From NCBI GenBank assembly GCA_964017235.1, contig OZ024938.1:9353454-9417453 (forward strand): a DNA stretch of 64,000 nt. The letters are read 5' to 3'. Below the pieces are notes generated by a model. The model searched no databases, had not been told where the DNA came from, and saw nothing but the letters and a program-made list of their open reading frames with translations. The stretch comes from Sabellastarte sp. h YS-2021 (taxonomy: Eukaryota > Annelida > Polychaeta > Sabellida > Sabellidae). This document shows, piece after piece, positions 3,723 through 63,661 of this stretch. The position numbers were made by a program, and so were the translations under genes. Within the stretch, counting starts at the first letter, position 1. Each line of letters opens with the position of its first letter.

Positions 3723-4140
3723 TTGCACACTAAAATCAACAAACTTCCAACCGCCTTAAAATATACCCCCATTTCTAACAAACACCTGCAGTTCATACAG
3801 GGATGAATATGTCTGACTTTACTGTCGAACATTTAAATGTCAAAATATATAGCAAACCACTGTTTGCAGCAATGAAATGCTGCAGGATTTATGCCTCTTT
3901 TATTTTGAAAAAAAAGTACTTCAGCCTTGTGGAGATAGGTGAAGTATCATACCTCAACAAGCTGGGGTGTTAGGTGATATTGATAAATTAGGGGTCTTAC
4001 TGTATCAACATTTTATTTGAGTAAGATTTGTGTCATTAAATGAAAACTTTCTGTTGATGTAGGATTAATTACACTGCTGGTTTTGTGTCATTTTGGTATA
4101 CGTGAAAGTATTTACTAAACTGCTGATATTCTATTGAGAG

Positions 4141-4362
4141 GGGGCCACGGTGGCAGAGTGGTAACACTCTTACCTCCAACGTCTGAGTTCGGAGTTTGGT
4201 TCCTGGCCTGACCTCAAGTGGGAAAGTTGGTAGTTCACAGTACAGAACCTTGACCAACTGTATGTACTGGTTTCCTCTGCCCTTCCTCCTACCCGTCATG
4301 ATATGACCAGTACCGTTGAATGCGACGTAAAACCCCAAATAAATAAATAAGTAAATAAATAA
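4141..4362 (+). repeat. tRNA-derived SINE, family A, full length with target-site duplication
   Basis: It starts GGGGCCACGGTGGCAGAGTG, with box A intact, and ends gcgacgtaaaaccccaaata plus (AAAT)n. The central part is slightly shortened: the gttgcttgcc/ggtcggcag segment is missing. Flanks repeat imperfectly as ATATTCTATTGAGAG and ATATTCTATTAAGAT, which fits a target-site duplication of about 15 bases. It is one of four copies here that allow the element ends to be set by duplication. Confidence 0.85.
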
Positions 4363-7739: not shown

Positions 7740-10635
7740 ATGAATAGCTTAAATATTATATCTTATAACTGCCAAGGCTGCGGTCCTTCTAGATTTCAGT
7801 ACATGCGTGAATTAATGAAGAATAATGACCTTCTGCTGATTTAAGAACACTGGCTGCATGAGAGTCAATTTGTTTTGTTTAAACAAAGTTTAAAGGATGT
7901 TACATATCATGGTATATCTGGTATGCAACGTAATGTGCTGTGTCAAGGTAGACCTTATGGTGGATGTGCTATTATATGGCATAGAAGACTGTTATCCAAC
8001 ATCCAGCCCATTCCATATGATTCGAGCAGGATATGTGCTGTGAAGGTAGAGACAGATAAATATTGTTTTGTTTTATCCAATGTATATATGCCACCTGCAT
8101 ATAGTCCAAAAGAGAAATATTTAGATGAGTTTCATTCTGTGTGCTCAGACTTGAATGCAATTATTAACTTAGCAAGCTGCTCTAATGTCATAATTGGCGG
8201 AGATTTTAACACAAATTTTGACAAACCCGCAGGTAATGTCAGATTGTTAGAAACTTTTATTAATAGAAATGACTTATACTGTGGATTAAATCATTCCATC
8301 AGAAATGTGAAGTTTACTTTTGAGAGTAAGGTACACCATTCAACATCTGTCATTGACCATTTTATATTTAGTTCTAACTTCTTTGATTATATTAATGTCT
8401 ATAGGTCATTTCATGAGCTTAATAACCTATCAGATCATTGTCCTTTAGCTGTAGAGTTTATGATACCTACAGAGTATAGTAAAAAGTCTCAGCCTGTTGA
8501 AAGTGTAATGGTTAATTGGTGTAATGCTACAAATAGCCACAAAGCTGACTACAAAGTTAAACTGGATGATCTGTTGGGTAAAATTGAAATACCATGGAGT
8601 GCTATTAATTGTAAATCTGTGAACTGTAAGAAACACATTTCAGGGTTGCAGTCTTTTCATGATGCCATTATTGATTGTTGTTTGTCATCTGCACAGGCTG
8701 TGATAAGTGTTGGTAAGAAGAGAAGTAGAAAAAAATGTATTCCTGGTTGGTCAGTTTATGTAGAGAAATATGAAAAAGAAGCTCTTTTTTGGCACACTCT
8801 GTGGCATGATTGTGGTTTGCCCACATACTGGCACTGTTGCTAATATTCATAGAACAACAAGAGCTAAGTACCATTATGCAGTGAAATATGTTCATAAATA
8901 AAGCTAACATAATTGCAAATAATATGGCTACTACTTTACTTCACAATAAATCATTATTTGCTCAGAAGTATTCTGAATTATATAATACAGTATCTTATGA
9001 TGTCGATAAATTACAGAAGTTAACTGTTACTGTTAATTATCAAATACAATCACTCTGCTGTGCTGATAATTGTTATTCAAATCATATGTTTACAGTGAAA
9101 GATGTTGCCACTGCAATGAAAAAGCTAAAGCACTATAAAAATGATGATAATATTGTACACTTTTCAGAATATTTGATAAATGGAAGTCATAAGTTACATG
9201 TTTTTCTTACTTTTTTGTACAACATTATGCTCATCCATGGTAACTCTCCTGATAAATTACAGACCGCCACTATTGTTCCTATAGCAAAAGATAAAAAGAA
9301 GTCCCTGTGTCAATCTAGTAATTACCATGGTATTGCTCTAAGTAGTATTGTAGGAAAGGTGTTAGACTTGATTGTGCTGGACAACAATAAAGAAATTTTA
9401 AAAAGTAGTGAATTGCAGTTTGGCTTTAAACCAAAGCACTCAACAAGTCTATGGTGTTAAATGAGATAATTGAGTATTACCACAGTAATAATACTGATAC
9501 TTTTGTCATGATGTGAGATGCATCAAAAGCTTTTGATCATCTAAATTATTATCAGTTGTTCAATCTCCTAGTAAATAAAAGATTATGTCCTATGATAATA
9601 AGGTTGTTGCTGCATTTGTATCTAAACCAAAAAATATGTGTTAAATGGGGAGATGATACATCACAGGAAGTTAAGGTAAAACAAGGTGGAATTCTGTCAC
9701 CAGTGTTATTTACTCTGTATATTGATCAGTTACTGCTAAGGCTAAGGAATACAGGAGTGGGTTGCCACATTGGAAATGTTTTTACGGTTGGGTTGGGATA
9801 TGCTGATGATATCTTGTTAATAGCACCCACTGTATATTCTCTTAGGTCAATGTTGAAAGTGTGATAATTTCGGTTTTGAATTTAATGTGTCATTCAATCC
9901 TGATAAATATCAGCTGCTGAATTTTACAAAATCACGAGAACAGGGAATAGCAGGAATTACACATAGTAATGTGTTCATTAAAGGGACAACAGTGTGTAAA
10001 CATTTGGGCCACTATATAGGTCAAGATGTTGAAAGTTTTTGGTATAGGGATGCTATTGATAATTTGATTATAAATGTTAATGGTATCTTGTCATTATTTA
10101 TTAATGAACACACAACAGTTACTTACTGTCTGTTCCAAAGTTATTGTGTGTCTATGTATGGAGCTGTAATATGGAATTTTAATTCAGTAGGTTTTAAGAA
10201 GGCCTGTAAAACATGGAGAAAGTGTGTTAGACGTGTATTTCAATTATCTAATATGATTCACTCTAGGTATCTTCCTGTGATTTGTAAAGATGTACCCATA
10301 AAATTAAATATATATAGAAGGTTCAATCGGTTTCTTTACAGTATAGTTAATAGTGACAATTCAATTGTTTGACTTCTGTTGATGGGTAGCAAATCTAATG
10401 TTGGTCAAAATATAAAAACCATATCCAATGAGTTAAATTGTTTAAGGGAAGAAGTGTATGCCACCAGGTCTATTTAACATAAAGATAATGCATGGCTTTG
10501 GAAGCCATGTATAGTGAGGAGGATGTTGTAGTTGTTGATAATATTCTAGATCTTTTATATATTAGAGACAAAAACTGTACCCAATTTAGTAAAGAAGAAA
10601 TTGATGGTATGCTTACCTTCTTATGTATTACTTAG
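7740..10635 (+). pseudogene. LINE ORF2 remnant: AP-type endonuclease and reverse transcriptase
   Basis: The reconstructed reading path is about 965 codons. It starts at ATG 7740, with the N-terminal endonuclease motif YNCQG near residue 10. Endonuclease signatures GDFN (about residue 155) and SDHCPL (about 230) are intact. A single TAA at 7842-7844 breaks the endonuclease frame, replacing a codon expected before EHWL. Frameshifts fall near 8820, 8885, 9452 and 9860, and a TGA lies near 9514. The reverse transcriptase keeps DASKAFD (about 9518-9538), KQGGILSPVLF, and the catalytic YADD at 9799-9810. A C-terminal tail ends at TAG 10633-10635. The motif set places it in the Jockey/CR1 group; the finer clade needs a tree. 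The element is dead but only moderately old. Confidence 0.9.
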
Positions 10636-16719: not shown

Positions 16720-17862
16720 TGATGTTCCCCGGATTGCATGGGCTGCAGAGCTGTATAGATGGTATTTAGGCTGCTCCTGTTTCCAAGATACTCCAAGTAA
16801 TAATAATAATAATAGTAGGATTTCTAGAGTGCAAAATTGATACATATCCTCTAATGCGCTTAAGTCCAAGAAGAGAGAGTCCAGGTACAGACATGGGTCG
16901 ACATCTAAAAAGCGAAAGCATTGACTTAAACCATGCATGCTGCTGGCTGTAATGTTACTGGACCATGTGCTGGAGTGGATGAGGTCCAAGAGGGCTGATG
17001 TTACAGATACCTCGAGCTTTGTGGCACACAACTTGACATTGATCACACACAATACACCAAGACACTATAACTGAACAAATAATTGAGAGCTGTAGTTGTT
17101 GTGATCCTCCATGAGGTGATGTAAACCACTGTCCCTGTATGCATGGGGTGACAGCCCCAACAGGTCTGTCACCCCAGCAGATGACACACAGATGCAATGG
17201 TCGTCCCCAAAAACATTGTCAACCAATGTTGTTTAAACGTTTTGTGTATACTGTTTATCAAACACTTCATGATGAATTTATGAAAAACGCTTCCAGTTTA
17301 AACTTCATTTTTTCAGCTATTCTGTAAACGTTTACAAAACATTTTCAGTTAAACCTAAGTTTCTTGAGTTATTTTATAAACATTTAATAAATGTTTTCAG
17401 CAAAAACATTTGTACAGAGAATGTTTGTAAACTGTCTGTTAAACATTACAGTGTAAATGTTTACTTGGAAACGTTTGGTAACCCAAACCATGGGGTTCAA
17501 ATAGGTTTGAAACCGGGTTTGACCATTGTACAATGTCTTTAATGTTTACTGGGAGATTTATAAGTTGTGATTTTTGTTAATGCATATTTTAATCGAAAGA
17601 AATCCACAGACTAGACATAAAACAAACACAAATAAATATTTTGTGTAAAAATTATGGCAAGTTATGACAGGGAGCACATCATTCCATGCAGTTATATGAA
17701 CATATATTTGACTTTTGCTTCACCACCTATTGGGTATTGCACATTCAAAAACTAGCCTCCTTTTTAAAGTTAGCCAGCACCCACCCGACCCTCTGTGAGA
17801 AGTCGTGGCGAGTTTTTCAAACTTTTGGGGAAAATGCACCATAAAAGGTGAATTGAAATTAC
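16720..17862. other. intergenic with degenerate gtaaacgttt/aaacattt motifs
   Basis: Between about 17220 and 17480 the words gtttaaacgtt, gtaaacgtttac, taaacatttaataaatg and aaacgtttgg recur irregularly on both strands. The pattern looks like a decayed repeat or the inner part of an AT-rich DNA element. A short (aat)n run lies at 16799-16813. No protein is recognised. Confidence 0.35.
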
Positions 17863-18413
17863 TACAAAATAAGTCAGTGATACAAAACAAGTTGTCTATA
17901 GAGCAGCTTATTTTGTATTATCGACTTATTTTGTATCACCCTGAAATCTTGTCAAAATTCTGTGCACCGTTTTGTAACATATTAAGTCAACTGTTGGTAC
18001 GAAGTCGGCCAAGTAATACAAAATAAGGCAATTTTACTACAAAATAAGTCAGTAATACGAAATAAGTAAAAAATTGATACAAAATAAGTCAGGTAATACA
18101 AAATAAGTTGTTGATACAAAATAAGATGTTACAAGGCATGGAACAACTTATTTTGTATCAACGACTTATTTTGTATTACATGACTTATTTCGTATCAATT
18201 TTTGACTTATTTCGTATTACTGACTTATTTTGTAGTAAAATTGCCTTATTTCGTATTACTTGGCCAACTTATTTCGTACCAACAGTTGTCTTAATATGTT
18301 ACAAAACGGTGCGCACAATTTTGACAAGATTTCAGGGTGATACAAAATAAGTCGATAATACAAAATAAGCTGCTCTATAGACAACTTGTTTTGTATCACT
18401 GACTTGTTTTGTA
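17863..18413. repeat. large near-perfect palindrome of 'tacaaaataagt' repeats
   Basis: The left arm (about 17863-18125) and right arm (about 18143-18413) are reverse complements over roughly 265 bases with few mismatches, separated by about 17 bases. Each arm is itself built of 14-17-base words such as gatacaaaataagtc and taatacaaaataagg. The single-arm version recurs at 21663-21946. The structure is two transposon ends placed head to head, and as single strand it would form a very long hairpin. Confidence 0.9.
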
Positions 18414-18548
18414 TTATCAGGTTATAAAATGCCACAATGTGTAAGAAATTTTGTTTTTAAAACTGTGGAACTCTTTGTTTATTCATTATTTTTATTTTAC
18501 ATTATATGGAAGCTCTGGACTGCCAATTTTTATTATTTTAATAACTTG

Positions 18549-18905
18549 AATATACCAGTTAGTTAGCTTGAATAATCGAGTTAATAACTGGAATATTTGA
18601 GTTAGTAACTTGAATATACCAGTTACCTAACTTGAATATACCAGTTCACTAACTTGAATATATGAATTAGCTAACTTGAATATACAAGTTAGCTAACTGG
18701 AATATATGAGATACTAACTGGAATATTTGAGTTAGTTACTGGAATATACAAGTTACTAAATTGAATTTATGAGTTAGGAACTGGAATACACAAGTTACTA
18801 ACTTGAATATATCAGTTAACTAACTTGAATATGCAAATTAGCTAACTTGAATATACAAATTAGTTAACTTGAATATATGAGTGACTAACTTCAAAATAAC
18901 AGTCA
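18549..18905 (+). repeat. tandem array of ~22-bp near-palindromic unit (left arm)
   Basis: About 16 units of the form taacttgaatatacaagttag follow one another. The outer seven bases (taacttg ... caagtta) are inverted copies of each other, with an AATATA centre that sets the direction. Units vary at tt/tg and ca/cc positions, so the array is diverged. It corresponds to the reversed array at 21225-21550. Confidence 0.9.
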
Positions 18906-18954
18906 AGTTAGGTAACTGGTATTTTCACCGACTTATTTTGTAGTAATTTTAATT

Positions 18955-20330
18955 CAACTTTTATAGTGCCTTGTCTCCATCAAAGGATGGACTCAAAGGA
19001 ATTTAATCCTTACTGTACTCAATTTTGTAGTCCATTTACCATTTGCCTGATAGCAATTCTTATTTTCAGCACTGAATTTCACAGAGATATAATTGATTAG
19101 ACTAGTCAGTAGTATATTGAAAATTATAACTGTATCTGTAAATGAATTTGAGATGGTGTTAAATCTTGGACTGGAATATATTTGTGGAAGTATGAATGCC
19201 CTTGTTGAATCAGACAAAGTTTACATATAGAGAGCTCAGATTTGGTTTATTGGTAGGAACACTAGCACAAAATCCTACAACCTTGGGAAAAATCAATGAT
19301 CTCCATGAGATAAGATGTTAAAATGTACACTTTGTACACTCAAGAAACCTCTGGCTAAATATTACATTAATGTTCAACATTACAGAGTAAACGTTATAGG
19401 GAGCATTGATGTAAGACTATGAATTTGGACAATACACTGTTAGACTACATATTGCTAACCTACACATCCTAACCAATATCCCTACCAAGTATCAACCTCC
19501 TACACCTTACAGTTTGAAGGATATGAGCCGGATGAGATCAAAGTCACTACAGCAAGGTCAAAGGTCAAATCAAGTTCATACTATGATGTTGCACACCTAC
19601 ACTCCCTAACCAGATTCTCTCAATGTCTCTATCAAGGCTCAACATCCTAACCCTAATGGTTTATGAGATACAGCATAGAGAAGTTAATACTGAACCAGCC
19701 CTCCCGCGTGGCAGAGAGACTGCCCAACTGCCCAGCCTGACACCACGGGTGACAACAATACCTGCACAGCGTAAAACCTACATATATCCCAAATTCTATT
19801 ATGCAAAATGTACAATTCTATAGACAACATGCAAATGTTAATCACATGTTAGCTCAGCCTTATTCCATAGAATATAGAAAAGGTGGCAAATGTGTTTATC
19901 CATTGGTAGCATTAAGCATTTTGTATGCATCAGAAAAAAAACAAGAATGACTGTGCATCATTTTAATAGCCAAAGTCTTTGCAAGTACTAAAATTTCAGG
20001 GATAAATACAATTTTTCCAATTCTTATGTGCTAAGTAACACTGTAAGAAGTCCTTCTTTCACAAAATTATCGTGAAAATTACATGAAAGGGTAAAAAAAA
20101 TCATGTCAAGTTTTAAATTGTACACAAACAAATTCAACCATAAATTATCATAGAATAAAATGTCATAGGCTTTGATAATAAAACTCTGTGAGGTCAAATT
20201 GCCTTGAAAATTGCTGATTGACAAGTTCCTATTATACAGTTGTGTTACAATTGCTATACTTTTTTCAAAACAAAATATATATGCACCTTTCTGAATATTC
20301 AGTAATCTGTGCAAGAGTCTTAATGTTACA
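18955..20330. other. core of the foldback element: LINE tail remnant plus unassigned text
   Basis: At 18955-19010 the reverse strand reads like the 3' end of the Jockey-like LINEs seen elsewhere (gagtccatcctttgatggagacaaggcactataaaa). A minus-strand frame at 19217-18993 (74 codons) has no recognised match. The remainder, including gcaaggtcaaaggtcaaatcaag at about 19552-19574, has no clear class. No transposase motifs were found on either strand. Confidence 0.35.
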
Positions 20331-20332
20331 GA

Positions 20333-21225
20333 AGCTCTGGACTACCAAAGTTTTTCTTTATTTTGCTAACTTGAATATACCAGTTATTTGACTTGAATAT
20401 AGTAGTTAGAAACTGGAATATACGAGTTAATAACTGGAATAAACCAGTCACTAACTTGAATATACAAGTTAACAAACTGGGATATATACAAGTTAGCTAA
20501 CTTGAAAAAACAAATTTGGTAACTGGAATATGCCAGTTAGGTAACTTAAATACAACAGTTAGTAACTGGAATATACGAGTTAGTAACTTGAATGTTCAAG
20601 TTACTAACTGGAATATACAACTTACTAACTTGAATATTCCAGTAAACTAACAAGAATATACAAGTTAACTAACTTGAATATACAAGTTAGCTAACTTGAA
20701 TATACGAGTTAACCAACTGGAATATACAAGTTAGCTTACTGGAATATACAAACTAATAACTGGAATATATGACTGACTATCTGGAATATACCAGATAGCT
20801 AACTTGAATATACAAGTTAGATAACTGGAATATACAAGTTAGCTAACCTGAAAATACGCGTTAGCTAACTTGAACATAAGAGTTACCTAACTGGAATATA
20901 CAAGTTGCCTAACTGGAATATACACGTTAGCTATCTTGAATATACAAGTTACCTAACTGGAATATATGAGTTAGTAACTTGAATATAAGACTTAGCTAAC
21001 TTGAATATACAAGTTAGCTAACATGAATATACAAGTTACCTATCTGGAACATATGAGTTAGTAACTTGAATATACAAGTTAGCTAGCGTGAATATACCGA
21101 TTAGTAACTGGAATATACAAGTTAGAAACTGGAATATTCAAGTTTATATCTTGAATATGCAAGTAAGCTAACTGGAAAATACCAGTTACCTAACTTGAAT
21201 ATTCAAGTAAGCTAACTCGTAGTTT
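20333..21225 (+). repeat. tandem array of ~22-bp near-palindromes, forward orientation
   Basis: This array starts after a second copy of the linker (gaagctctggactaccaaag) that precedes the left array, so it is a second left-type end inside the element. About 38-40 units run in the forward sense. Most read taact(t/g)gaatata(c/t)(c/a)agtta. There are no unique spacers between units. The near-equal unit length across about 860 bases suggests growth by unequal exchange or replication slippage. Confidence 0.88.
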
Positions 21226-21550
21226 GAAGTTAGTAACTCATATATTCAAGTTAGCTAATTTGCATATTCAAGTTAGTTAACTGGTATATTCAAATTAGTA
21301 ACTTGTGTATTCCAGTTCCTAACTCATAAATTCAATTTAGTAACTTGTATATTCCAGTAACTAACTCGAATATTCCAGTTAGTATCTCATATATTCCAGT
21401 AAGCTAACTTGTATATTCAAGTTAGCTCATTCATATATTCAAGTTAGGTAACTGGTATATCCAAGTTAGCAACTTGTACATTCAAGTTACTAACTCGAAT
21501 ATTCCAGTTATTAACTCAAATATTCAAGCTAACTAACTGGTATATTCAAG
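21225..21550 (-). repeat. tandem array of ~22-bp near-palindromes, reversed orientation (right arm)
   Basis: From about 21225 the unit reads ...ggtatattcaagttag, the reverse complement of the units to the left, so orientation switches inside what looks like one continuous array. This part pairs with the left array at 18549-18905 and forms the inner section of the right inverted repeat. Confidence 0.85.
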
Positions 21551-21955
21551 TTGTTAAAATAAAATAAAAATTGGCAGTCCAGAGCATAAAAAAATGAATA
21601 AACAAAGAGTTCCACAGTTTTAAAAAGAAAATTTCTTACACGGTGTGGAGTTTTATAACCTGATAATACAAAATAAGTCAGCGATACAAAAGAAGTTGTC
21701 TATAGAGCAGCTTATTTTGTATTATTGACTTATTTTGTATCACCCTGAAATCTTGTCAAAATTCTGCGCACCGTTTTGTAACATATTAAGTCAACTGTTG
21801 GTACGAAATAAGTTGTCCAAGTAATACAAAATAAGGCAATTTTACTGCAAAATAAGTCAGTAATACAAAATAAGTCAAAAATTGATACGAAATAAGTCAT
21901 GTAATACAAAATAAGTCGTTGATACAAAATAAGTTGTTACAAGGCATCATATTCT

Positions 21956-22553
21956 GAAAATGCCGTCCATATTGATTGAAACACGTTCTACCCAAAATGC
22001 AAATCCCGACTTATTAGATGGAACATTATGAACTATATATTACCAATCTGCTGGACAAGACAAGTCATGTAGGTTGTAAAGGGGGTCAGTTTTCAGACAA
22101 TACAATAAATATATATGGCTGTAGGTCTTAATCAAGAAAGGCGTATATTAATATTTCAATCATACTTAGTTATCCGCTTGTCATATATGATTCATAATAT
22201 ATTAAATATATCATTAACTATTGGATAGTGGATGAAACAGTATTGAGATCCTTGGCTCTATTAATAGGGTTGACTTTTTTTCTGCAAGTCTGAATTGCCA
22301 TAGCCAAGTTCCATACAGGCAATGTATTGTAAGAGCTACCTGATTTAAAACTTGTGAGACTGATAGTAGTACTGTTAAAAGGAATGTTGGAAAAACTGGT
22401 AAAATATATGATTTGTCCCCAGTTAAAGGACAACTCATACAACAGAACTTATCTACCTAAAGAACTGCTCCTGATTGTTAGTATTAATCATCAATGGTCA
22501 TAACACCGAGCCAGACTAACACTTGCGCATTAATTGACAGCTGTATAACTCAT
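21956..22553. other. intergenic, no clear feature
   Basis: The stretch right of the foldback element holds two overlapping minus-strand frames of 74 codons near 22214-22442 with no known match. No repeat edge or RNA gene is visible. Confidence 0.3.
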
Positions 22554-27678: not shown

Positions 27679-28235
27679 ATGCCTCAGATCTGGTTACATA
27701 ATGGAGATTAAGTGCTAGATTAAATTAGATCTGTGAAACTGGGTTTAATCTAACCTCACATAACCTTTCAGCCACAAAGGGAAGTTTGACATGTGTTTTA
27801 GACTGTGATCCTTTTTTTCGACTTCTAGCTTCAAGAGTAAATTGAAAGCACACAAAGCCCAGGAAGAAAGATCTGCCTGGCATAAAAACACAGAAATCCA
27901 CCTGCTTTTATTGAACTATTCAATGAGAAAGTGTCATTAGACAGGACTGGCAATGGATGGAATGAAGGGACAGGTAGTAATTCTTCTAGTAATGGATAAA
28001 ACCCACAGGGTTTTATGGTAATGAAGCCTTTCACTTGTGAATAGGGGACAAAAATAGCAATAAAATGGGCATGTGCTGTGCCATTGTTACATGTCTACAT
28101 TGCCAGTCAGGAATCAAGATTATATTCTTGTGTATTGATTTTAATATCACAAGTCAACAGTGACTTTCATATGTTTCCTTTTATCTAGTCAGTGTTTTAT
28201 GTCATGCCTTTTCCCTTTATATCAGTTATATTGTG
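27679..28235. other. intergenic, no clear feature
   Basis: No recognisable protein, RNA or repeat edge. The minus-strand frame of 67 codons at 28034-27831 has no known match. Confidence 0.3.
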
Positions 28236-28412
28236 ACCAGTAGTTGGATTGATGGAGCAAACTAGTGCATACAGTTGGTCAAGGTTCTGTACAGTAAACT
28301 GCTGACCAATGGCAAACAACTACCAGCTTTCCCACTTGAGGTCAGGCCGGGATTCGAACTCACGTCTCAGAGATGGGAGGTGAGTGTGCTACCACTGCAC
28401 CAGTGTAACCCC
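28236..28412 (-). repeat. tRNA-derived SINE, family A, 3'-truncated
   Basis: In reverse the copy has the head (ggttacactggtgcagtggt), box-B-like gagttcgaatccc, ggcctgacctcaagtgggaa, and the central gttgtttgccattggtcagc; the gtactggtttcctctgccc part and the tail are mostly lost. The head reads tggtgcagtgg rather than tggcagagtgg, a variant also seen at 59697. Confidence 0.7.
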
Positions 28413-29154
28413 TTGTGTTCTCCTTCTTACTTCTAACATTATATTTATTCTGTGTGTGATGCAAATGCAATTGAAGTTTATTTTAGTAAAAGGGATTCAA
28501 ACCCATAACAAAAGGAATGTGGATGCGAAAGTGAAGCCGACAATACAACTGTTACCCTAAATACTAAACCAAATAATCTGAATTGAAATAACAAAAATAA
28601 AGACATTTTCACTGAAAGCTAACATGTTGCCATGACAGTGAGAGGACTATGCCTAGGGCAAAATGCTAATGAAATAGTATTATGTTGTTGGAATCCTTTG
28701 AATATTTAGCCACAGTTTCCACGATAGCAACAACAGACAGAAGATACTCAACCGACATCACTTGTGCCATATATTAAAAGCCATTCTTTTATTTTACACA
28801 AGAAAAAAGCTAAATATTCTTTCACTTGTGTTGATTGTTTTATTAATTCAAGTTTAAACATTTATTTTGTTATTTGACAACTAATTCTTGAAAATTCTTG
28901 TACCTGAGTCCTTCATTAGAAGAGAGAAATATAAATAGATGGTAGATTTCAGTGATTGTGGTCATACAAATTGACCCAATTTTTTTCTGAAATGGAACGG
29001 TGGTGCTTGCCCAGTGGTGAAACAAAAAACACAAGATTGAGTCTTTCATTGGGTTTGGGCAATACAATTTTAAATTTCTAACCTTTGAATTTAAAAACTT
29101 CTTTTAACTAACTGTGTACTAACATGCAAGTAAAATTTTCCCAATGTATTTTGA
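28413..29154. other. intergenic, no clear feature
   Basis: AT-rich; the minus-strand frame of 65 codons at 29067-28870 is unrecognised. No repeats stand out. Confidence 0.3.
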
Positions 29155-30852: not shown

Positions 30853-31100
30853 ATTAACTTCTGCCAAGGAGGTATTAAATTCATGACTGCTTATTTTTCT
30901 GTTTGTCTGTTTGTTTGTCAGCAGTAATAGCAGTATATACTACCGGTCTAATCTCTATTTAAAACAATTAGAAGATAGCTCTTGATCAAACTTAGATCAC
31001 CACTTTGATACAAAAATATCAAAGATTCAGCTTTTCCTAGTTACTTATAGTTTTTTTTTTAAATACTTGCCTTGGTGGAACTATGTGCTATGTGGAACAG
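30853..31100 (-). repeat. copy of the 'cctccttggcggaggt' repeat, reversed
   Basis: The copy starts taacttctgccaaggaggta, has tttctgtttgtctgtttgtt, a gatcaaacttagatcacca core, and ends cttgccttggtggaactatg, matching the family order in reverse. It is non-coding. Confidence 0.55.
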
Positions 31101-31888: not shown

Positions 31889-32012
31889 TTATTGACTCCG
31901 TCAAGGTGCTATTACTTTCACAGCCTCGTCTTTGTCTGTTTGTAACAAGTATTATGGAAATACTACTGATAGGGGTATAGGGGCACCAACTACAGCAATA
32001 GAGGAATTACTA

Positions 32013-32475
32013 TTACACAAATTGATTGATGCCAACAGGGCTAATGGTAGGAACCTCCCAAATGTTGTATAATTCTCTTGCTCTGCGCACCTCCTGAGTA
32101 TTTGGGGTAATATCAGAACCTAACCATTGTATCACACTGAATCTCATATTTGAATGAGAGTGATTATCTGAGTGAAAATGTTTAGAAACTGGTGTCTCTG
32201 CATTTTCCCCTGCTTTTGACACTTGCTATGTGTTCTTAAATCCTGTTTCTAAATGGTCTACCTGTTTCGCCTATGTATTGTTTCCCACATTCGGTACATT
32301 CAATCGGGTAAATGATGTTACTGATTTCACAAGTTAAATACACAGGTTTGGGTAAGTTCATGCACGTATACTCTCTACCAGTGTAGTGACTAGTGAAGTT
32401 CCTTATTTTGTTAAGTTTGGGGCAATAAGTACATTTCCCTAATCTGGTGCATAACTTTGGTTTGGTTGTGGTCAA
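32013..32475 (-). pseudogene. PLE endonuclease domain (GIY-YIG type), frameshifted
   Basis: The first frame (32475-32236) holds CTRLGKCTYCPKL, a Cys pair typical of the zinc-binding region before PLE endonucleases, then a YTGREY motif, the nuclease-like NIIYPIECTECGKQYIGETG (pattern Y-I ... YIGET) and FRNRI. A TAA follows at about 32233-32235, and a shift leads into the second frame (32222-32013) with TPVSKHFHSDNHSH and QWLGSDITPN, matching the second half of the domain. The role in the family is to nick target DNA for reverse transcription. One stop and one frameshift make this copy inactive. Confidence 0.85.
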
Positions 32476-32834
32476 AGGGGTGTGTGTAGGGGGATATGAT
32501 ATTTTATTGGATATGATATTTTATTTACATCTGAAAATCACATTTAGATTGGTAAGCCTAAACCATCTCTTAACCTCCTTAAGGCGCTAAGGAGGAAATG
32601 GGACTGAGTGAATTCAAGCAAAGGTTACTATGGCAACCACCTTTTAGTACATAATATTCCACAAAATGATAACTAGTTAAAATAAATTGCTTATAAGCAC
32701 ATCAAAGAATTAGTAATAAGCACCACCATTGACTTAAAAAAATCAACATTAGCACTGTGCAGCAACCACCAATTTATGGAGCCTGCCAGAGCCATAAATT
32801 GTATTTTAAGGGTTCAGATTTTTTATATCCCCCA

Positions 32835-32909
32835 TGCCTCTGATGAGACCATACTCTAACCCAAGAGGGTCGAAATATTTTTTATAAATTCAAAGCAATA
32901 TATCAGGCA
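32835..32909 (+). ncRNA. hammerhead ribozyme motif, type I, in the PLE insertion
   Basis: All core elements are in order. Stem I 5' strand TGCCT (32835-32839) is followed by CTGATGA (32840-32846). Stem II is GACC (32847-32850) with GGTC (32868-32871), extended by CTCT/AGAG. Then come GAA (32872-32874) and stem III ATAT (32875-32878) with ATAT (32900-32903). The cleavage triplet is ATC ending at 32904, and the stem I 3' strand AGGCA is 32905-32909. Cleavage would fall after C32904. Hammerheads are known in the terminal repeats of PLEs, which supports the call. Short stems I and III may limit activity in isolation; many PLE hammerheads work as dimers. Confidence 0.8.
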
Positions 32910-33137
32910 ATTGATTGACTTCTAAGCAACATAATTTTTAAGTTTTATGGAAATACTACTGGTTGGAACTTCATGAAAAAAAATGAAGATTGGTCTTGGT
33001 CCAACTTGGATCCCATTGAATTTTAAAAGTGACCTGGATCACAGTCTGGATGCAAAAAAAAAAAATAATCCGGATTTTCCCATTTATTTATTATTACGTA
33101 CTTTAGCAGAGTTATGAGTTCCCCAAGTGCTCTTGTT

Positions 33138-37017: not shown

Positions 37018-37252
37018 GGGGGCCACGGTGGCAGAGTGGTAACACTCTCGCCTCCCACCTCTGAGGCCGGGGTTCGGTTCCCGGCACGGCCTCAAGTGGG
37101 AAAGCTGGTAGTTGCTTGCCGTTGGTCGGCAGTTTACAGTACAGAACCCTGACAAACTCTATGTACTGGTTTCCTCTGCCCTTCCAACTACCCATCGTGA
37201 TATGACCTGTACAGTGTTGAAAGCGACGTAAAACCCCAAATAAATAAATAAA
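37018..37252 (+). repeat. tRNA-derived SINE, family A, best-preserved copy with target duplication
   Basis: Length is 235 bases. The tRNA-like head has box A TGGCAGAGTGG and box B GGTTCGGTTCC. The central part runs gggaaagctggtagttgctt, actggtttcctctgccc, gtgatatgacctgtacagtg; the 3' motif is gcgacgtaaaaccccaaata plus (AAAT)3. A perfect 13-base duplication TCATCCTCTTCAC flanks it (37005-37017 and 37253-37265). Its good state and clean flanks suggest a recent insertion. Confidence 0.92.
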
Positions 37253-37420
37253 TCATCCTCTTCACCCCTCAAGCTTGTACATTTTATTACAGTTTGTGGG
37301 AGGTCAGGACAAGGTTTCTTAAATATTTCAAAAAAGGTGTGCCAAATGCAAATCACTTTCTGAGTTGACCCTGATGTTAATCCCACTAAATCGCAACAAG
37401 TATATCCTACCACAATACAA

Positions 37421-44735: not shown

Positions 44736-45119
44736 AGAGGGAGCCTGGCCTACTTAATAAATTCAACATTTAATAAACTTACCTCCTATTACCTTCATCC
44801 TTGGTTAGTATACAGCTCAGGGCTTCACGTAGTAGGGTATACACTGGGAACATGTGTGTCAGTATGTAAAATACCAACTTTGGCCATGAAGCCATGTTTT
44901 AGGCATGATTTGGTTAATTCTCATTATACACCAATTTTTTTCCTGCATAGAAACATCTGTGGGAAATCACAGCACATTTTCACTCAAGGAAATGACTTCT
45001 TGTATATAAAAGGAAAACATTGAAAATGGCATCTTTGTCCCTGCCGTAACTAGGCACAAACAACCTGGGCACACACAAAATATTTTATTATTTTGAGTGT
45101 GGTTACTTGTATTTCTTTT

Positions 45120-45300
45120 CATTACCTCTGCCAAGGAGGAATTAAACTGTCTGTCTGTGTATGTCTGTTTGTTGTTTGTTCTCAGGATTATGCAAATATT
45201 ACTGCTCAAATCTTCATGGAAATAAGTAACCGTACAGTGTTCTAGGATAAAATGTAAGCCGAAAATTGGTTTAACACAAAATACCATGTTGCAGATAAAT
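45120..45300 (-). repeat. 'cctccttggcggaggt' repeat, reversed, partial
   Basis: It starts cattacctctgccaaggagg, then tctgtctgtgtatgtctgtt and gattatgcaaatattactgc, followed by aatcttcatggaaataagt. The last words align with both halves of the copy split by the PLE at 31969-32944. Confidence 0.6.
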
Positions 45301-48620: not shown

Positions 48621-48689
48621 TGATATTTCTGCGTAACCCCTGGGCCTGGGTTTGTACTCAGACACTGCTTGTTATATTCTGAAGTCTGC

Positions 48690-48870
48690 TTGTGTAACTT
48701 GACCAGTTCCCACCTGATCACTGAAGTTAAGCAGGTTAGGCTTGGTTAGTACTTGGATGGGTGATGGTCTGGCTTCTTGGCCAGGTATTGGTGGATGATC
48801 CTGTAAATGGCTGTCCCATTGCAACTGAAACAAGGTACTAGATGTGATCTTAAGTGAATAAATCAATCAA
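48690..48870 (+). repeat. 5S rRNA-derived SINE-like repeat, copy 4, different body
   Basis: The block gatcactgaagttaagcagg, then ttaggcttggttagtacttg and gatgggtgat, is very close to 5S rRNA, but the flanks differ from copies 1-3: cttcttggccaggtattggt, then gtcccattgcaactgaaaca and a tail aataaatcaatcaa. It looks like a second 5S-headed family with its own 3' end. Confidence 0.7.
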
Positions 48871-53770: not shown

Positions 53771-54270
53771 TTGTAATATCCAACAAATACTGCCTTCTAT
53801 TATCCTTTGCATATGAGTATATATATAGCCGCTAATTTTGTCAAACGTCGCTAATAACGATCCGTATGGTCTTTTTATATTCAAACTATCGTAACCATAA
53901 TGCGTTACTCACACTACAGTATAAATCCCTTACTTGATTCTCGAAGCATTGGTGAAAACAATACCCTGCACGCCTTGGGAAAATAGCGTGATATTTCTGA
54001 AGGCTACCTATTTGTAGCTTTATATATTTACATTAATCAATTCTGTGGTTGTTTTAATAGCTATATACAAGATCAAAGTATGAACATGTCAGGCTAGTTT
54101 TTGGTATGATAAATTTCATGTTTTAGTACTATCTCTTTGTTGTAGCAAGTTGCACTTTTTGTGTAGGAAGCGTTTCACACAGAATGGATAGCTTTTTGCG
54201 ACTGTAAAAAATTTTCCAAAGTGTATGAAAGTGCAATGTACATGCTGGAGGGGAGTACTACCCACATAAA

Positions 54271-54289
54271 GGGGGGGGGGGGGGGGGGG
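54271..54289. repeat. poly-G tract in duplication copy 1
   Basis: About 20 G in a row; the equivalent site in copy 2 (60297-60304) has about 8. This is microsatellite-type expansion after duplication, subject to sequencing error. Confidence 0.85.
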
Positions 54290-54408
54290 AGGCATTGTGG
54301 TTGAAATTACTCCAAGGATAATAAAAGGCAGACAAACAAAAGCTCGAAGAACACAATCTCCTAATAAGGAAATATGAATACATATCTCAGTGATTATATC
54401 TTCATGTA

Positions 54409-54639
54409 GGGGCCACGGTGGCAGAGTGATAACACTCTTGCCTCCCACCTCTGAGGCCGGGGTTCAATCCCTGTCATGGCCTCAAGTGGGAAAGCTGGTA
54501 GTTGCTTGCCGTAGGTCGGCAGTTTACAGTACAGAACCCTAGCGAACTTAATGTGCTGGTTTCCTCTGCCCTTCCAACTACCCGTCGTGATATGACCTGT
54601 ACAGTGTTGAAAGTGACGTAAAACCCCAAATAAATAAAT
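54409..54639 (+). repeat. tRNA-derived SINE, family A, inserted after the duplication
   Basis: 231 bases from GGGGCCACGG to (AAAT)n. The 13-base duplication ATATCTTCATGTA lies at 54396-54408 and 54640-54652. In duplication copy 2 the same place (near 60410-60425) reads atatcttcacgta once, without a SINE. This filled/empty pair sets the element's borders exactly and shows insertion after, or lineage-specific to, copy 1. Confidence 0.95.
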
Positions 54640-56989
54640 ATATCTTCATGTATGCTTCGAGTGTTCTCCACATCCATTTACATTTTTTTTTCAAAATATG
54701 CCATTTAATTTTTTGTCTCTCTCAATTTGCTCGAATTTGTCAAAACTGACTTGGTCAAAAAGGTCCACCACCAAAACACAATGTATTAAACCTGGAGGTG
54801 TTTTCAAATCTAAAGAAGACCAAATAATCTCTTATGATTAAATACTGAAAGAAGCTATTAAGCATATAATTTCAGATTAAATTATAATGTAGGTACCCTT
54901 TTACTTTTGGTCTGGTTGACATAACTGATTTTTCTGGAAATGACCTCCAACTACTGCTACTGGTAATTCAGGTACTGGTATATAACTCTAAGACCACAGA
55001 TGATTATAGCAAAACGACTATGAATTAATAGCATCAAATCTCATTTAGTTTTTTACATCTCCTCAAAATCAATGTTAAATTCAGACGGTTATATAATTCT
55101 TAAAGTCTAGTCAAATGCACAAGCTAAAACCATCCCGACATAATTTCAGAATGGCATGAAAAATTTTTCAGAACTGTCTTGCCATATAGTGTTATATTGT
55201 TGTTTATTTATTTCAAAAGTTTACAACTTTTACTTGGCCCTACCTGTTCAGCTATCAAGATGAAACATTCCTAAATTAATCTAGTCTATTCAACATATAA
55301 TGCAAATGGATATCCACTATAAAAGCAAACCATCCTTGCTAGTTACACAGAGATTACACCTTCCCATGTAGGAGGTCACAAGCTACAACTGAACTGGATC
55401 AACTGCTTTCATTTCTTCACCACCGAGTATTTTCATAGGATGTCTTTGATGAAACCAACCACACATTTGGGATACCTTTGAGCATGCAGACATATATCAC
55501 TGGAAAGCTCTTCATTCACAATCTACAGACTGCCAAAAACACCTATCTGTAACATAACCTTCCACAAAAAGATTCTACAGCTGAGAACCAGCTACAGTTT
55601 GCAAATATGTGCATCTGCATGAGTTTCAAAGAAACAGCTGTGAAAACTATCTTGCATTTCAAATTAAGAACATACTGTCCAAACATGTAGGAGTTTAGGT
55701 GTTAAAATCAAATGTGTGACAGATGGATAACAAGAAAATCTCAACAGATTGTGCTAGAGTAATAGCAAATGAAATGTAACGGGTACTTTTAAAGTGTTTG
55801 ATCTTCATCATATTACAGATTTCAAAGTGTGAGGGAAGTGAGAAAACGGAAAAAAAATCAGAAACAAGAGACATAGCCTGGCCAACACCAGAGATGCCAA
55901 GGAAAAGGGAGGGCGATGGGGGATAAGCTTTACTTGAAGAGATATGTTTTCAATGTGTGCCTGTAAGATCATAGAGAAACTGCAGTTCAGATAACACCAG
56001 AGAGCTAATTCCACATATTTGAATTATCATGGAAAAAACTGTGGCTCAAGTGCTGTTTTATCAAAGCATTGAAGACATGAACTGTATGGAACTATGTGGA
56101 ACCCTTGAGTACTTCCTTAGGTTTCCTGCACCTGGTGTTGTAGGTGCATGAAATTTGAGTAAGGTAGGATCTGAATTACTTTGGAAAACCACTGTGGACG
56201 TACATTTATAACAGTGTTTTGAAAATGCAGCAATGTTCAACGGGCAACCAATGTAAATGTTTAAAAACAGGTGTGATTCTAGAAATATATTTGCAATGTT
56301 TCTAACCAGGCTATTTTGATGTAGTGTTTATATAGGATGCCTACAGACTTCTGAACAGTGGGTTACCGTAGTCAAGGGGTATTCATACAAGAGCATTGCA
56401 GGCTAGTATTACAGCTTCACAAGGAGGTATTTCCTAATATATCTGAGGTCACGTATCTGAGCAAAGCAAACTCCAAATATTTTTTGAACATGGTAATAAC
56501 TGAAACCTCTGAATCAAATTAATATATGACCATTAGATATACATTAATATAACAATAGTAAGATATCCCAGTTGACATTTTAATGCTTGCAAACGTTTGA
56601 AGGAAAATGTTTTGTAAAGGTAAAAAAATTATGGGTATGAAACCCATTTATAATAGGTCATCATTATGTTTTATGTATACCATTTATTTAACGTTTACCG
56701 ACAAATGTTAGAAAAAACGTCACAAATGAACATTAGAATGCCTCAGAAATACTATTTCAGAACTGCTTGTCAATATTAACCTTAATTGGAGTCAGAAGTC
56801 AAATTAAACCTGTTTGTAGGTAACTCACTAATAAAAAAGTTATATTTATGTATTTTATGCCTAAATCCCCAATAATTGCTCACTGCCATCTTTGAAAATG
56901 TTTGAAGTTAAGCATTTAACTAGAGGATCGCTTGCAAAACAAAGCAATTATTTTTGCATGGCAAAACACAGCATCCCGAGAAACAATGG

Positions 56990-58020
56990 CAGCTTAATCA
57001 TGTAAGAAAGTTTTTGGTGAGTGAAATATTCGTTGAAACTTGGAAAGGTTAGTCTCCACAGATACCCTGTGGATCAAATATTTGGCCGACTTTGCTCTAT
57101 CTGGCATGGTTTTCGAGATACAAGCATTTTTGTGTTATGCAATTTTTGCAAAAAATTCGAAAATTAAAAATTGCCGCCATTTTTGACGGGACAAAAAAAT
57201 GTTGAAAATTGGGTCAGCTACTCAGCAGAGTTACCCTACGAGTAAAAAAATCTGTCGAAATTGCTCTATCTAGCATGGTTTTCGAGATACAAGCATTTTT
57301 GAAAAAACTCGAAAATTCAAAATGGCCGCCATTTTTGGCAAGTGAAATATTTGTTGAAATTTGGAAAGGCTAGTCTTTACAGATACCCTGTGGGTCAAAA
57401 ATTTGGCCAAATTCGCTCTATCTGACATAGTTTTCCAGATACAATTTTGTGTTTTGCAATTTTTGTGAAAACTTCGAAAATTCAAAATGGCCACCAGTTT
57501 TGGCCGGACAAAAAATATTTGAAAACTGGGTCTGGTACTCAGCAGAGATTCCCTGTGGGTCAAAAATTTCACCAAAATCGCTCTATCTAGCATGGTTTTC
57601 GAGATGCAAGCACTTTTGTGTTTTGCATTTTTGAAAAAAATTCTAAAATTCAAAATGGCCGGCATTTTTGGTGAGTTAATTATTTCTTGAAACTTGGAAA
57701 GGCTAGTCTTAACAGATACCCTGTGGGTAAAAATTTTGCCAAAATCTCACAAGTAAATTTTTATTTTATGAAGAAAATGGTTTCAAAAAGTACTCATATA
57801 ATACTTAGTATCACTTAGTTCTATATGTGTATCTTATGAGCTTAAATTTCCAATTTTGTGTTTTGCATTTTTTGTCAAAAATTCAAAAATGGAATATGCC
57901 CCCCATTTTGCGGGAAGAGAACATTTTTGGAAAATTGGAGGGAGTAGTTTAATTAGATACCCTGTGGGTCAAAAATTTCGACAAAATTACTCTATCTCAT
58001 ACGGTTACTCATTAAGAAAA
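56990..58020. repeat. ~166-bp tandem repeat array, about six units (copy 1)
   Basis: The phrase taccctgtgggtcaaaaat or a variant occurs near 57065, 57232, 57384, 57550, 57718 and 57958, giving spacings of about 167, 152, 166, 168 and 240. Each unit has cgctctatctagcatggttt, gagatacaagcattttgtg, and attcaaaatggccgccattt. The minus strand is open across two and a half units (57665-57270), and neighbouring units alternate between two sub-types. Confidence 0.88.
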
Positions 58021-58993
58021 TTGTTAATGCTCAATTAATCATCAATAACTCAGTCATTTCTTAACCTATCCCTGCCAAAATTTAATGTCGCCCAGATCTT
58101 TATATCAGGAAGGTCTTTGCTAAATTTCAGCTGGATAGATAAAATGCTTCGTAAGTTATTATCCGGACAAGTACGCCCTTGCAAAAAAGCGCATTTTTTG
58201 CCATGTGACCTCTCTGATTGGTGAAAATGTCATCGCACATATTCATGAAAATTTACTTGGGCTACTGCATACACCTGCCAAATCTGAAAAGAATTCGTCT
58301 TATGGCTGCGAAGCTATTGCAAAAAGAAAATGCGGATCCGGTGGAGTCGCTTCTCCCATATACAAACAAGCGTCATTTTTAAAAACATTTCAAATTTTTA
58401 CTGAGAGAAAATCGTGGTAAATTCTGAGGTTTTGTGAAGGTTTCTTTTACCAAAAAGTTTATACACATGAGGAGACTGTCAAAAGTACTTCATCAACCAA
58501 ACATAACCCAAAGGAATTAGTTTTGACACCTCAAAATATGGAAAAATTAAATTTTTAGTTGATTGTTATTATGTGTTTTGAAATAATATTTTTGCATTTA
58601 ACATTCATTGATAAGTATTCAAGTTACAAAATAAATTGTTTATTCTGTTTACCCTCTTTAAAAATTAATGTTTTGTATTTTGCTACATGATAAAACATTG
58701 TGACATGTTAAAGCAAAATTTGTATTTGGAATAATGTTTTCAACCTTTTATGTCAATAGATTTTAATGCAACAAAAGTGAGCAGAAGCATATTCAAATAC
58801 TTACACAATGATATATATTACCTATTTGTGCCTTAAAGTTTTTAAATGATTTGCAGAAAGATGAGCAATTTTCAACTTATATTATTGTCCGCCAATTGTA
58901 TCCACCAGATGCTGTATGCCAGTTGTTTTGTCGGTTAAGTGCAGGGGGCTTCACCTATGACTAGAGTCTTGTTATCTACCACAATAAAAACAA

Positions 58994-59798: not shown

Positions 59799-62514
59799 TA
59801 TTGTAATATCCAACAAATACTGCCTTTTATTATATAGCATCATATAAGTAGCTCATATTGTCAAATGTCGCAAATAACGATCCATATGGTCTCTTTATAT
59901 TCAAACTACTGTAACCATAATGCGTTACTCACACAACATTATATATTCCTTACTTGATTCTTGTGTCATTGGTGAAAACAATACCCTGCACGCCTTGGGA
60001 AATTAGCGTGATATTTCTGAAGGCTACCTTTTTTGTAGCTTTACATATTTACATTAATGTCTTCTGTGGTTATCTTAATAGATGTATACAAGATCAAAGT
60101 ATGAACATGTCAGACTAGACTTTGGTACGATAAATTTCATGTTTTAGTACTGTCTCTTTGTTAGAGCAAGTTGCACTTTGTATCTGAGTAGGAAACGTTT
60201 GACACAGAATGGATAGCTTTTTTGTGAATGTAAAAACTTTTGCATAATGTTTGAAAGTGCAATGTACATGCCAGAGGGGAGCACTACCCACATAAAAGGG
60301 GGGGATTGTGGTTGAGATTACTCCAAGGATAATAAAAGGCAGACAAACAAACAAAAGCACCAATAACACAATCTCCTAATAAGGAAATATGAATACATAT
60401 CTCAGTGATTATATCTTCACGTATCCTTCGAGTGATCTCTACATTCATTTACATTTTTTTTTTCAAAATGTGCCATTTGATTTTGTTTCTCTTTATTTTT
60501 GGTCAATTTGCTCGAACTTGTCAAAACTGGCTCGGTCAAAAAGGTCCACCACCAAAACACATTGTATTAAACCTGAAGGTGTTTTTAAATCTAAATAAGA
60601 CCAAATAATCTCTTATGATTAAATACTAAAAGAAGCTATTAAGCAAATAATTTCAGATTAAATTATAATGTAGGTACCCTTTTACTTTTGGTCTGGTTGA
60701 TATAACTGATTTTTCTGGAAATGACCTCCAACTACTGCTACTGGTAATCCAGATTCTGGTATATAACTCTAAGACCACAGATGATTATAGCAAAACTACT
60801 GAATTAATAGATTTTTTTTTACATCTCTTCACAATCAATGTTAAATTCAGACAGATCTAAAATTCTTAAGGTCCAGTCAAATACACAAGTTAAAACCATC
60901 CCGACATAATTTCAGAATGGCATGAAAAATCTTTCAGAACTGTCTTGCCATATAGTGTTATATATTGTTGTTTATTTATTTCAAAAGTTTACAACTTATA
61001 CTTGGCTCTACCTGTTCAGCTATCAAGATGAAACATTCCTAAATTAATCTAGTCTATTCAACATATAATGCAAATGGATATCCACTACAAAAGCAAACCA
61101 TCCTTGCTAGTTACACAGAGATTACACCTTCCCATGTAGGAGGTCACAAGCTACAACTGAACTGGATCAACTGCTTTCATTTCTTGACCACCAAGTATTT
61201 TCATAGGATGTCTTTGATCAAACCAACCACACATTCAGGATACCTTTAAATATGCAGACATACTAGTATATGGCTGGAAAGCTTTTCATTCACAGTCGTT
61301 TACAGACTGCCAAAAACACCTATCTGTAACATAACCTTCCACAAAAAGATTCTACAGCTGAGAACCAGCTACAGTTTGCACGAGTTTCAAAGAAACGGCT
61401 GTGAAAGCTATCTTGCGTTTCAAATTAAGAACATACTGTATAAACATGTAGGAGTTTAGGTGTTAAAATCAAATGTGTGACAGATGGATAACAAGAAAAT
61501 CTCAACAGATTGTGCTAGAGTAATGGCGAATGAAATGTAATGGGTACTTTTAAAGTGTTTAATCTTCATCATATTACAGATTTCAAAGTGTGAGGGAAGT
61601 GAAAAAAGGGAAAAAATCAGAAACAAGAGACATAGCCTGGCCAACACCAGAGATGCCAAGGAAAAGGGAGGGCGATGGGGGTTAAGCTTTACTTGAAGAG
61701 ATATGTTTTCAATTTGTGCCTGTAAGATGACAGAGAAACTGCAGTTCAGATAACACCAGAGAGCTAATTCCACATATTTGGATTATCGTGGACAAAGCTG
61801 TGGCTCAAGTGCTGTTTAATTAAGCACTGAAGGCATGACCTGTATGGAACTATGTGGAACCTTCCTTAGGTTTCCTACACCTGGTGTTGTAGGTGCATGA
61901 AATTTGAGTAAGGTAGGGGCTGAAATACTTTGGAAAACCACTGTGGACGTACATTTACAACAGTGTTTTGAAAATGAAGTAATGTTCAACGGGCAACCAG
62001 TGTACACGTTTAAAAACAGATGTGATTCTAGAAATATATTTGCAATGTTTTTAACAAGGCTATTTTGATGTAGTGTTTATATTGGATGTGTACAGACTTC
62101 TGAACAGTGGGTTACATTAGTCAAGGGTATTTATACAAGAGCATTGCAGGCTGGTATTACAGCTTCACGCAGGAGGTATTTCCTAATATATCTGAGGTCA
62201 CGTATTTGAGCAAAGCAAACTCCAAATACTTTCTGAACATGGTAATAACTGAAACCTCTGAATCAAATTAATATATGACCATTAGATATACATTAATATA
62301 ACAATAGTAAGATATCCCAGTTGACATTTTAATGCTTGCAAACGTTTGAAGGAAAATGTTTTGTAAAGGTAAAAAAATTATGGGTATGAAACCCATTTAT
62401 AATACGTCATCATTATGTTTTATGTACACCATTTATGTTACGTTCACCGACAAATGTTAGAAAAAACGTCACAAATGAACATTAGAATGCCTCAGAAATA
62501 TTATTTCAGCAACT

Positions 62515-62950
62515 CAGGTACTCAGCACAGATGCCCTGTGGGTAAAAAATTTCGTCAAAATCGCTCTATCTAGCATGGTTTTCAAGATACAAGCACTTTT
62601 GTGTTTTGCATTTTTGACAAAAATTCTAAAATTCAAAATCGCCGCCATTTTTGGTGAGTGAAATATTTCTTGAAACTTGGAAAGGCTAGTCTTCACAGAT
62701 ACCCTGTGGGTCAAAAATTTTTCCAAAATCCCACTAGTAAATTTTTATTCTATGAAGAAAATGGTTTCAAAAGTACTAAGTATCACTTAGTTCTATATGT
62801 GTACCTGATGAGCCTATATTTCCAATTTTGTGTTTTGCATTTTTTGTCAAAAATTCGAAAATTGAATATGACCCCCATTTTGGGGGAAGAGAAAAAGTTT
62901 TGGAAAATTAGAGAGAGTAGTTTAATCAGATATCCTGTGGGTCGAAAATT
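62515..62950. repeat. ~166-bp tandem repeat array, about three units (copy 2)
   Basis: The anchor phrase ccctgtgggt occurs near 62530, 62701 and 62933. The first unit starts right after a point where copy 1 carries about 800 more bases, so whole units were lost here or gained in copy 1. Confidence 0.85.
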
Positions 62951-63661
62951 TTGACAAAATCGCTCTATCTCACACGGTTAAGGAGATACAAGCAGTTTTG
63001 TGTTTTACTCGTTAAGAAAATTGTTAATGCTTAATTAATCATCAATAACTCAGTCATTTCTTAACCTATCCCTGCCAAAATTTAATGTCGCCCAGATCTT
63101 TATATGAGGAAGCGTTTGCTAAATTTCAGCTGGATAGATAAAATGCTTCATAAGTTATCATCCGGACAAGGATGCCCTTCGAAAAAATGCATTTTCAGTC
63201 ATGTGACTTCTCTGATTGGTGAAAATGTCAATGCAGCATATTCATAAAAATTCCTTGGGTTACTGCTTACACCTGCCAAATATGAAAAGAATCTGCCTTA
63301 TGTGGCTGTGAAGCTATTGCAAAAAGAAAATGCTGATCTGGCGGATCCGGCGGAGTCGCTTCTCCCATATACAAACAAGCGTCATTTTTAAAAACGTTTC
63401 GAACTTTTACTGGGAGAAAATCTTGGTAAATTCTCAGATTTTGTGAAGGTTTGTTCTACCAAAAGTTTATACACATGAGGAGACTGTCAAAAGTACTTCA
63501 TCAACCAAACATAACCCAAAGGAATTGGTTTTTGACACCTCAAAATATGGAAAAATTGAATTTTTAGTTGATTGTTATTATGTGTTTTGAAATAATATTT
63601 TTGCATTTAACATTCATTGATAGGTATTCAAATTACAAAATGAGTTATTTATTCTGTTTAC

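Follow-up and report, generated by a model that had tools for sequence, protein, structure and literature searches.

A probable decayed Penelope-type hammerhead in a rearranged, 5'-truncated retroelement insertion

A short piece of plus-strand DNA in a 64-kb window (the whole stretch of DNA analyzed) from the annelid Sabellastarte has the parts of a hammerhead ribozyme and lies beside a broken endonuclease gene of the other strand. The locus raises the question of whether the motif belongs to the same mobile element as the endonuclease, came with a different one, or is a chance resemblance. The motif is real: all of the parts named in the initial annotation are present in their places on the plus strand (table 1). 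Assessed by the core CUGANGA ... GAAA ... UH and the type I arrangement of three helices, with stem I open, it has both the core and the three-helix layout of a type I hammerhead. Stem II has an ATA bulge on one side only, and 58 nt separate the start of stem II from the predicted cut. A three-stem descriptor scanned over both strands of the 64-kb window has this motif as its single match and finds no second hammerhead; a scan with a minimal descriptor adds one weak 4/3-bp match at 40469.

Table 1. Positions of the insertion, its host repeat, and the parts of the hammerhead motif in the window.
Feature	Position	Strand	Basis or remark
Old dispersed repeat hosting the insertion, one half on each side	31890-33137	+	
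Other copy of the host repeat	27183-26981	-	
Other copy of the host repeat	30853-30998	+	
Other copy of the host repeat	45117-45225	+	
Other copy of the host repeat	48005-47876	-	
Target duplication, left copy, 17 bp	31952-31968		
Target duplication, right copy, 17 bp	32945-32961		
One retroelement insertion, 976 bp	31969-32944		target duplication and empty-site alignment
First endonuclease stop codon to insertion end, 44 nt	31969-32012	-	
Frame-broken GIY-YIG endonuclease and Penelope linker	32016-32580	-	upper limit approximate
Putative inverted pseudo-LTR and ORF start	32581-32944	+	position compared with PMC11167929
Hammerhead motif, predicted cut after C32904	32835-32909	+	motif reading, descriptor scan, fold
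Stem I, 5 bp (TGCCT/AGGCA)	32835-32839/32905-32909	+	
Core CTGATGA	32840-32846	+	
Stem II, outer part, 4 bp (GACC/GGTC)	32847-32850/32868-32871	+	
Stem II, inner part, 4 bp (CTCT/AGAG)	32854-32857/32864-32867	+	
GAA (32872-32874), weak stem III with 21-nt loop, ATC triplet	32872-32904	+	
Stem III, 4 weak bp (ATAT/ATAT)	32875-32878/32900-32903	+	
ATC cleavage triplet	last base 32904	+	

The frequency of such matches by chance was estimated in simulated 64-kb windows with the trinucleotide composition of the real window and with G-U pairs allowed. Across 16,437 simulated windows, stems of at least 5, 4, and 4 bp occur 24 times (∼0.0015 per window) and arrangements with at least 13 pairs overall occur 177 times. 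A smaller run of 150 simulated windows has no occurrence at 5/4/4, one at 4/4/3, and 14 at 3/3/2. When the insertion alone is simulated (976 bp, own composition), at least one match to a descriptor demanding stems I and II only is present in 1 of 20,000 simulations. These frequencies agree with the earlier claim that the combination of stems and core is unlikely by chance. At the rate observed per window, a match alone is weak evidence if many windows are scanned.

The covariance search that the initial annotation had offered as a check goes against it. At the gathering threshold, no Rfam family exceeds its threshold anywhere in the window, and under permissive thresholds no hammerhead does so in searches of 1,001 bases, 96 bases, or the whole window. 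Only the 96-base search listed any hammerhead among the permissive searches. Its best family, RF03152 (RAGATH-1-hammerhead), matches exactly 32835-32909 on the same strand with model positions 26-77 of 77, but scores 17.3 bits versus a threshold of 56.3 (E 0.57). We give this negative little weight because Rfam also lists no hammerhead, up to an E of 10, for the predicted hammerhead-like motif of an independent Penelope element (locus L001, described below), whether 4,168 or 96 bases are searched. Rfam seems insensitive to hammerheads of the Penelope type, judged from a control motif that is itself only predicted, and its threshold may not discriminate as a criterion for this kind. A negative result from the library is by itself no ground to dismiss Penelope-type hammerhead motifs.

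Predicted folding separates the first two stems from the third. Ensemble pair probabilities in the 75-nt piece are 0.52-0.95 for stem I and 0.69-0.74 for stem II. The four pairs of stem III in the active register have probabilities of 0.001-0.002 in the same piece, and these round to 0.0 in longer contexts (212, 364, and 401 nt). Stem III is improbable because its AT-rich arms pair two bases off register, GA with UC, which is the arrangement in the minimum-energy fold; the active fold with stem III in register is not favored in prediction. The fold energy is ordinary (z of -0.66), with 46 of 200 shuffles folding equally well or better. The description of the core as complete thus holds for the presence of its parts but not for stem III, which is weak, off register, and closed over a long loop. 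AUC is said, in the title of one work, to be a trinucleotide lacking in most natural hammerheads, and given this rarity, the ATC triplet of the window motif counts against strong activity. As a monomer, the window copy is probably a poor ribozyme. It is most likely a weak relic that has lost most or all of its activity in that form.

A target duplication marks the limits of the DNA that carries the motif. An exact 17-mer that recurs at a distance of 200-2000 bp, as the target duplication does, occurs in only one other place in the window, counted outside of the array regions 17500-22500 and 56900-58100. Once the insertion is removed in silico, its two flanks join into a single copy of an old dispersed repeat, which can be aligned through the junction to four further copies. 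Matches of the unjoined left flank that reach the duplication stop at 31964-31968, and the matches of the unjoined right flank closest to the duplication begin between 32932 and 32953. Together, the 17-bp duplication and the alignment to the empty site indicate that the DNA between arrived as one 976-bp unit, and the endonuclease of the minus strand lies within this single target duplication together with the hammerhead motif of the plus strand. The host repeat was rejected as the carrier of the hammerhead, since the motif is absent from the copy aligned there and from the four other copies and the three-stem scan matches nowhere else in the window. A DNA search of plasmids with 32400-33100 gave no match.

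The minus-strand part identifies the insertion as Penelope. It has a GIY-YIG endonuclease of the Penelope type with the linker, and the hammerhead motif lies inside the same element. In one of three frames, the stretch scores 22.5 bits against Pfam GIY-YIG (PF01541), just below the cut-off of 22.6 (E 1.4e-4). Five short relatives (from 7 candidates) and nine longer ones (from 110 candidates) pass an E of 0.001. All 14 relatives retrieved align to the endonuclease stretch, and four of the nine longer ones have precomputed domains for both reverse transcriptase (PF00078) and GIY-YIG. Similarity to Penelope proteins on the minus strand ends near 32580. No reverse transcriptase domain is found in the insertion, which is a 5'-truncated copy. 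The target duplication, empty-site alignment, and endonuclease uphold the earlier view of a truncated Penelope-like insertion. The 44 nt that follow the endonuclease stop contain neither a hammerhead nor a pseudo-LTR, and no repeat of the right segment occurs at the left end of the insertion, that is, pseudo-LTRs common to both ends were not found. Searches of phages and plasmids with Penelope protein gave no match. Matches in the PDB to two designed repeat proteins were dismissed; their query frame differed from that of the endonuclease. Within the Penelope linker, a 17-bp tandem duplication (32492-32525) breaks the alignment of the endonuclease frame.

Minimal hammerheads of Penelope-like elements are reportedly described by Cervera and De la Pena in 2014 and by Lunse et al. 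in 2017. The window motif resembles them in type I topology, in location at a Penelope end, and in short stems I and II. They reportedly lack helix III, whereas the window motif has four weak pairs with a 21-nt loop and is a single broken copy. In the available portions of two papers, Penelope hammerheads are usually minimal and without helix III (PMC6155905, PMC7761336). The window motif does not have this form, as four pairs are possible, but these are predicted not to form in register. The same two papers and a third, in their accessible text, state that Penelope hammerheads may act as dimers and that their role is unknown (PMC6155905, PMC7761336, PMC6466107).

The position of the motif is compatible with that in the Penelope elements PAc and L001. 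Penelope elements have a tandem arrangement with pseudo-LTRs, and the hammerhead of PAc (Poseidon of Anolis carolinensis) is located where the pseudo-LTR meets the ORF, with the cut 26 bp past the start codon and reverse transcription beginning 111-118 bp into the ORF (PMC11167929). The window copy likewise has its hammerhead near a possible ORF start and ends ∼100 nt past it. Relative to ATG 32843, the insertion end is at +102, and relative to ATG 32834 it is at +111; these positions fit PAc well. Only 40 nt lie between the predicted cut and the end of the insertion, compared with 85-92 nt in PAc (111-118 minus 26), an inexact fit. We infer from its place, hammerhead, and end point, rather than from sequence similarity, that the plus-strand segment is a pseudo-LTR. 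Sequence comparisons are negative. The segment matches no pseudo-LTR; against that of L001 it shows no similarity, with 186 of 300 shuffles scoring equally well. No protein match above 22 bits is found among the 14 Penelope relatives, a negative weakened by the small number of them that extend to the N-terminus.

If the plus segment comprises a pseudo-LTR and the beginning of the ORF, the hammerhead has the normal orientation of its source element, and the inverted part would be the endonuclease piece, relative to the hammerhead's own sense. That the motif and the endonuclease ORF are on opposite strands had been recorded at the outset and is correct. The arrangement is not odd because an inverted pseudo-LTR is common in Penelope inserts, according to the available part of a study of Adineta vaga (PMC3846280). 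As described there, Penelope of this species has a typical structure with inverted pseudo-LTR and target duplications, the Pen2a pseudo-LTR includes the first 12 ORF codons (22 with the tail), and Pen2a and two other inserts have target duplications of 8-10 bp (PMC3846280). Like the inserts so described, the window insertion is a single insert that has a target duplication and whose parts face opposite ways, but its duplication is 17 bp and it has only one pseudo-LTR-like segment. Terminal repeats of Penelope elements can be direct or inverse, in the accessible text of another source (PMC7334843).

An independent Penelope element provides a second case. Scans of public contigs for relatives of the endonuclease found a single locus, L001, on a contig of 4,168 bp, and scans of genome and viral contigs with a single protein, most alignments, and the L001 protein found no further endonuclease relatives. 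The contig is binned in a Deltaproteobacteria MAG and is probably misbinned eukaryotic DNA. RVT_1 and GIY-YIG domains occur together in frame 1-2379, and a 196-nt sequence recurs at the two ends of the contig (99% identity, at a distance of 3,972 nt), a terminal redundancy of the kind seen in tandem or circular units. It has a single CTGANGA core, at 2768 in the sense orientation and ∼380 nt past the endonuclease stop. When the pieces of the window insertion are placed in one sense order, coordinates would put its hammerhead ∼300 nt past the stop. The L001 motif has stems I and II of 6 and 4 bp, with an additional A between the core and stem II, GAAATATC, and a predicted cut at 2801, with an ATG ∼41 nt past the cut. 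Its predicted fold is clean (stem pair probabilities of 0.86-0.98), and a match of its type occurs in 10 of 5,000 simulations. Both motifs have CTGANGA, GAAATAT, and an ATC triplet; aligned with each other, the hammerheads share only a match of eight bases that 245 of 1,000 shuffles equal. Just past the endonuclease stops, the two distant elements have AGTTGGTRCCCCYAT in common (31977-31991 of the window, minus strand; L001:2393-2407). This match of 15 bases with two differences is reached in 14 of 1,000 shuffles against the first 101 nt and 66 of 1,000 against 471 nt, and as a similarity between the two Penelope elements it is suggestive only.

We suggest, with a probability of roughly 0.8, that the motif is a decayed Penelope-type hammerhead in a pseudo-LTR segment at one end of a Penelope insertion that is single, rearranged, and truncated at its 5' end. 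Several observations argue against this reading: the plus segment matches no Penelope sequence, stem III and its loop are atypical, no Rfam match is above threshold, the target duplication is longer than 8-10 bp, the distance from cut to end differs from that of PAc, and stem II of L001 has its extra A. A rival reading is that an AT-rich stretch of the insertion resembles a hammerhead by chance and was never active. A scan of many windows will meet some matches at the simulated rate, and the lack of an Rfam match above threshold and of any conserved relative observed, the off-register stem III, and the ordinary fold energy are consistent with such a coincidence. We nevertheless consider it unlikely, given the 1 in 20,000 for the insertion alone, a host element of a class known for hammerheads, a position that fits near the inferred priming end, and a sense-strand motif with GAAATAT and ATC in L001.

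We consider it very unlikely that the plus segment is instead a separate nonautonomous element, such as a metazoan retrozyme, that arrived together with the endonuclease piece or next to it. In many animals, type I hammerheads reside in retrozymes (PMC7229834, available portion), invertebrate hammerheads of that kind possess helix III (PMC7761336, in its accessible text), and no sequence links the plus segment to Penelope. The motif also resembles those of metazoan non-LTR retrozymes, as far as the available text describes them, in its type I form and in an AT-rich repeat of the animal type (PMC7229834). But the tandem units of 150-450 bp with a hammerhead in each that characterize retrozymes are not found in the window, nor is a second hammerhead; helix III is weak here, and one target duplication surrounds both parts.

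A decayed Penelope-type hammerhead leaves the layout of the insertion to be explained. In a living element, the hammerhead would cut a tandem transcript where the pseudo-LTR joins the ORF, and cleavage would probably be weak and occur as a dimer or with the aid of the element's protein. PAc RNA cleaves only when its protein is added, cleavage is dispensable for insertion in vitro, and the protein cuts and extends both target strands in vitro (PMC11167929). Tentatively, and at somewhat less than even odds, the insertion may be the footprint of Penelope priming from both target strands. The right target strand would prime ∼100 nt into the start of the ORF and yield the sense segment with pseudo-LTR and hammerhead, whereas the left would prime the same tandem RNA 44 nt behind the stop and yield the inverted endonuclease piece. 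Priming of this kind explains the single pseudo-LTR-like segment, the right end near the ORF start, and the internal left end. Twin priming of LINE-1 offers a comparison. A limited search of the literature for such priming found no titles on Penelope insertion, which is not a claim that it is absent from print.

Alternatively, head-to-head self-priming could have made the layout, with an inverted 5' pseudo-LTR and the 3' pseudo-LTR missing. This process competes with priming from both strands and not with the hammerhead being of Penelope type. Inverted pseudo-LTRs at the 5' end are typical, and self-priming is their proposed cause in the available portion of PMC3846280, but the inverted copies described there carry a pseudo-LTR at each end, and in the window the endonuclease side stops 44 nt past the stop codon with neither pseudo-LTR nor hammerhead. 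We regard self-priming as a possible but rather doubtful origin. Priming from both strands would be expected to leave an insert in which just one end is pseudo-LTR-like, the hammerhead is close to the priming end, and the endonuclease piece is inverted. If priming from both strands did occur, the insertion would be a genomic footprint of the in vitro cutting and extension of both strands by PAc (PMC11167929) and would offer a route other than self-priming to inverted Penelope copies.

Hammerheads in Penelope elements are already known, and a layout with one pseudo-LTR-like end is mildly novel. Their activity and role in vivo are called a mystery in the accessible text of PMC7761336, so one more decayed copy changes little.

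The window has other repeated and mobile sequences. A fold-back at 18139-21941 has 354-nt arms, 95% complementary and separated by ∼3.1 kb, that flank arrays of a 22-bp repeat. Pieces of 53831-58664 and 59851-63673 form a direct multi-kb duplication, are 5.0-6.0 kb apart, and are 90-97% identical. Dispersed repeats at 1373-1603, 4140-4316, 28225-28413, 37018-37257, and 54408-54647 have a head that by eye resembles a tRNA-derived SINE, and a subthreshold match to mascRNA-menRNA is within one copy. On the plus strand, a subthreshold match to 5S rRNA at 48672-48791 (26.4 versus 38 bits) is possibly a 5S-derived SINE, and ORFs at 7845-10372 resemble, by eye, the endonuclease and reverse transcriptase of a non-LTR retrotransposon.
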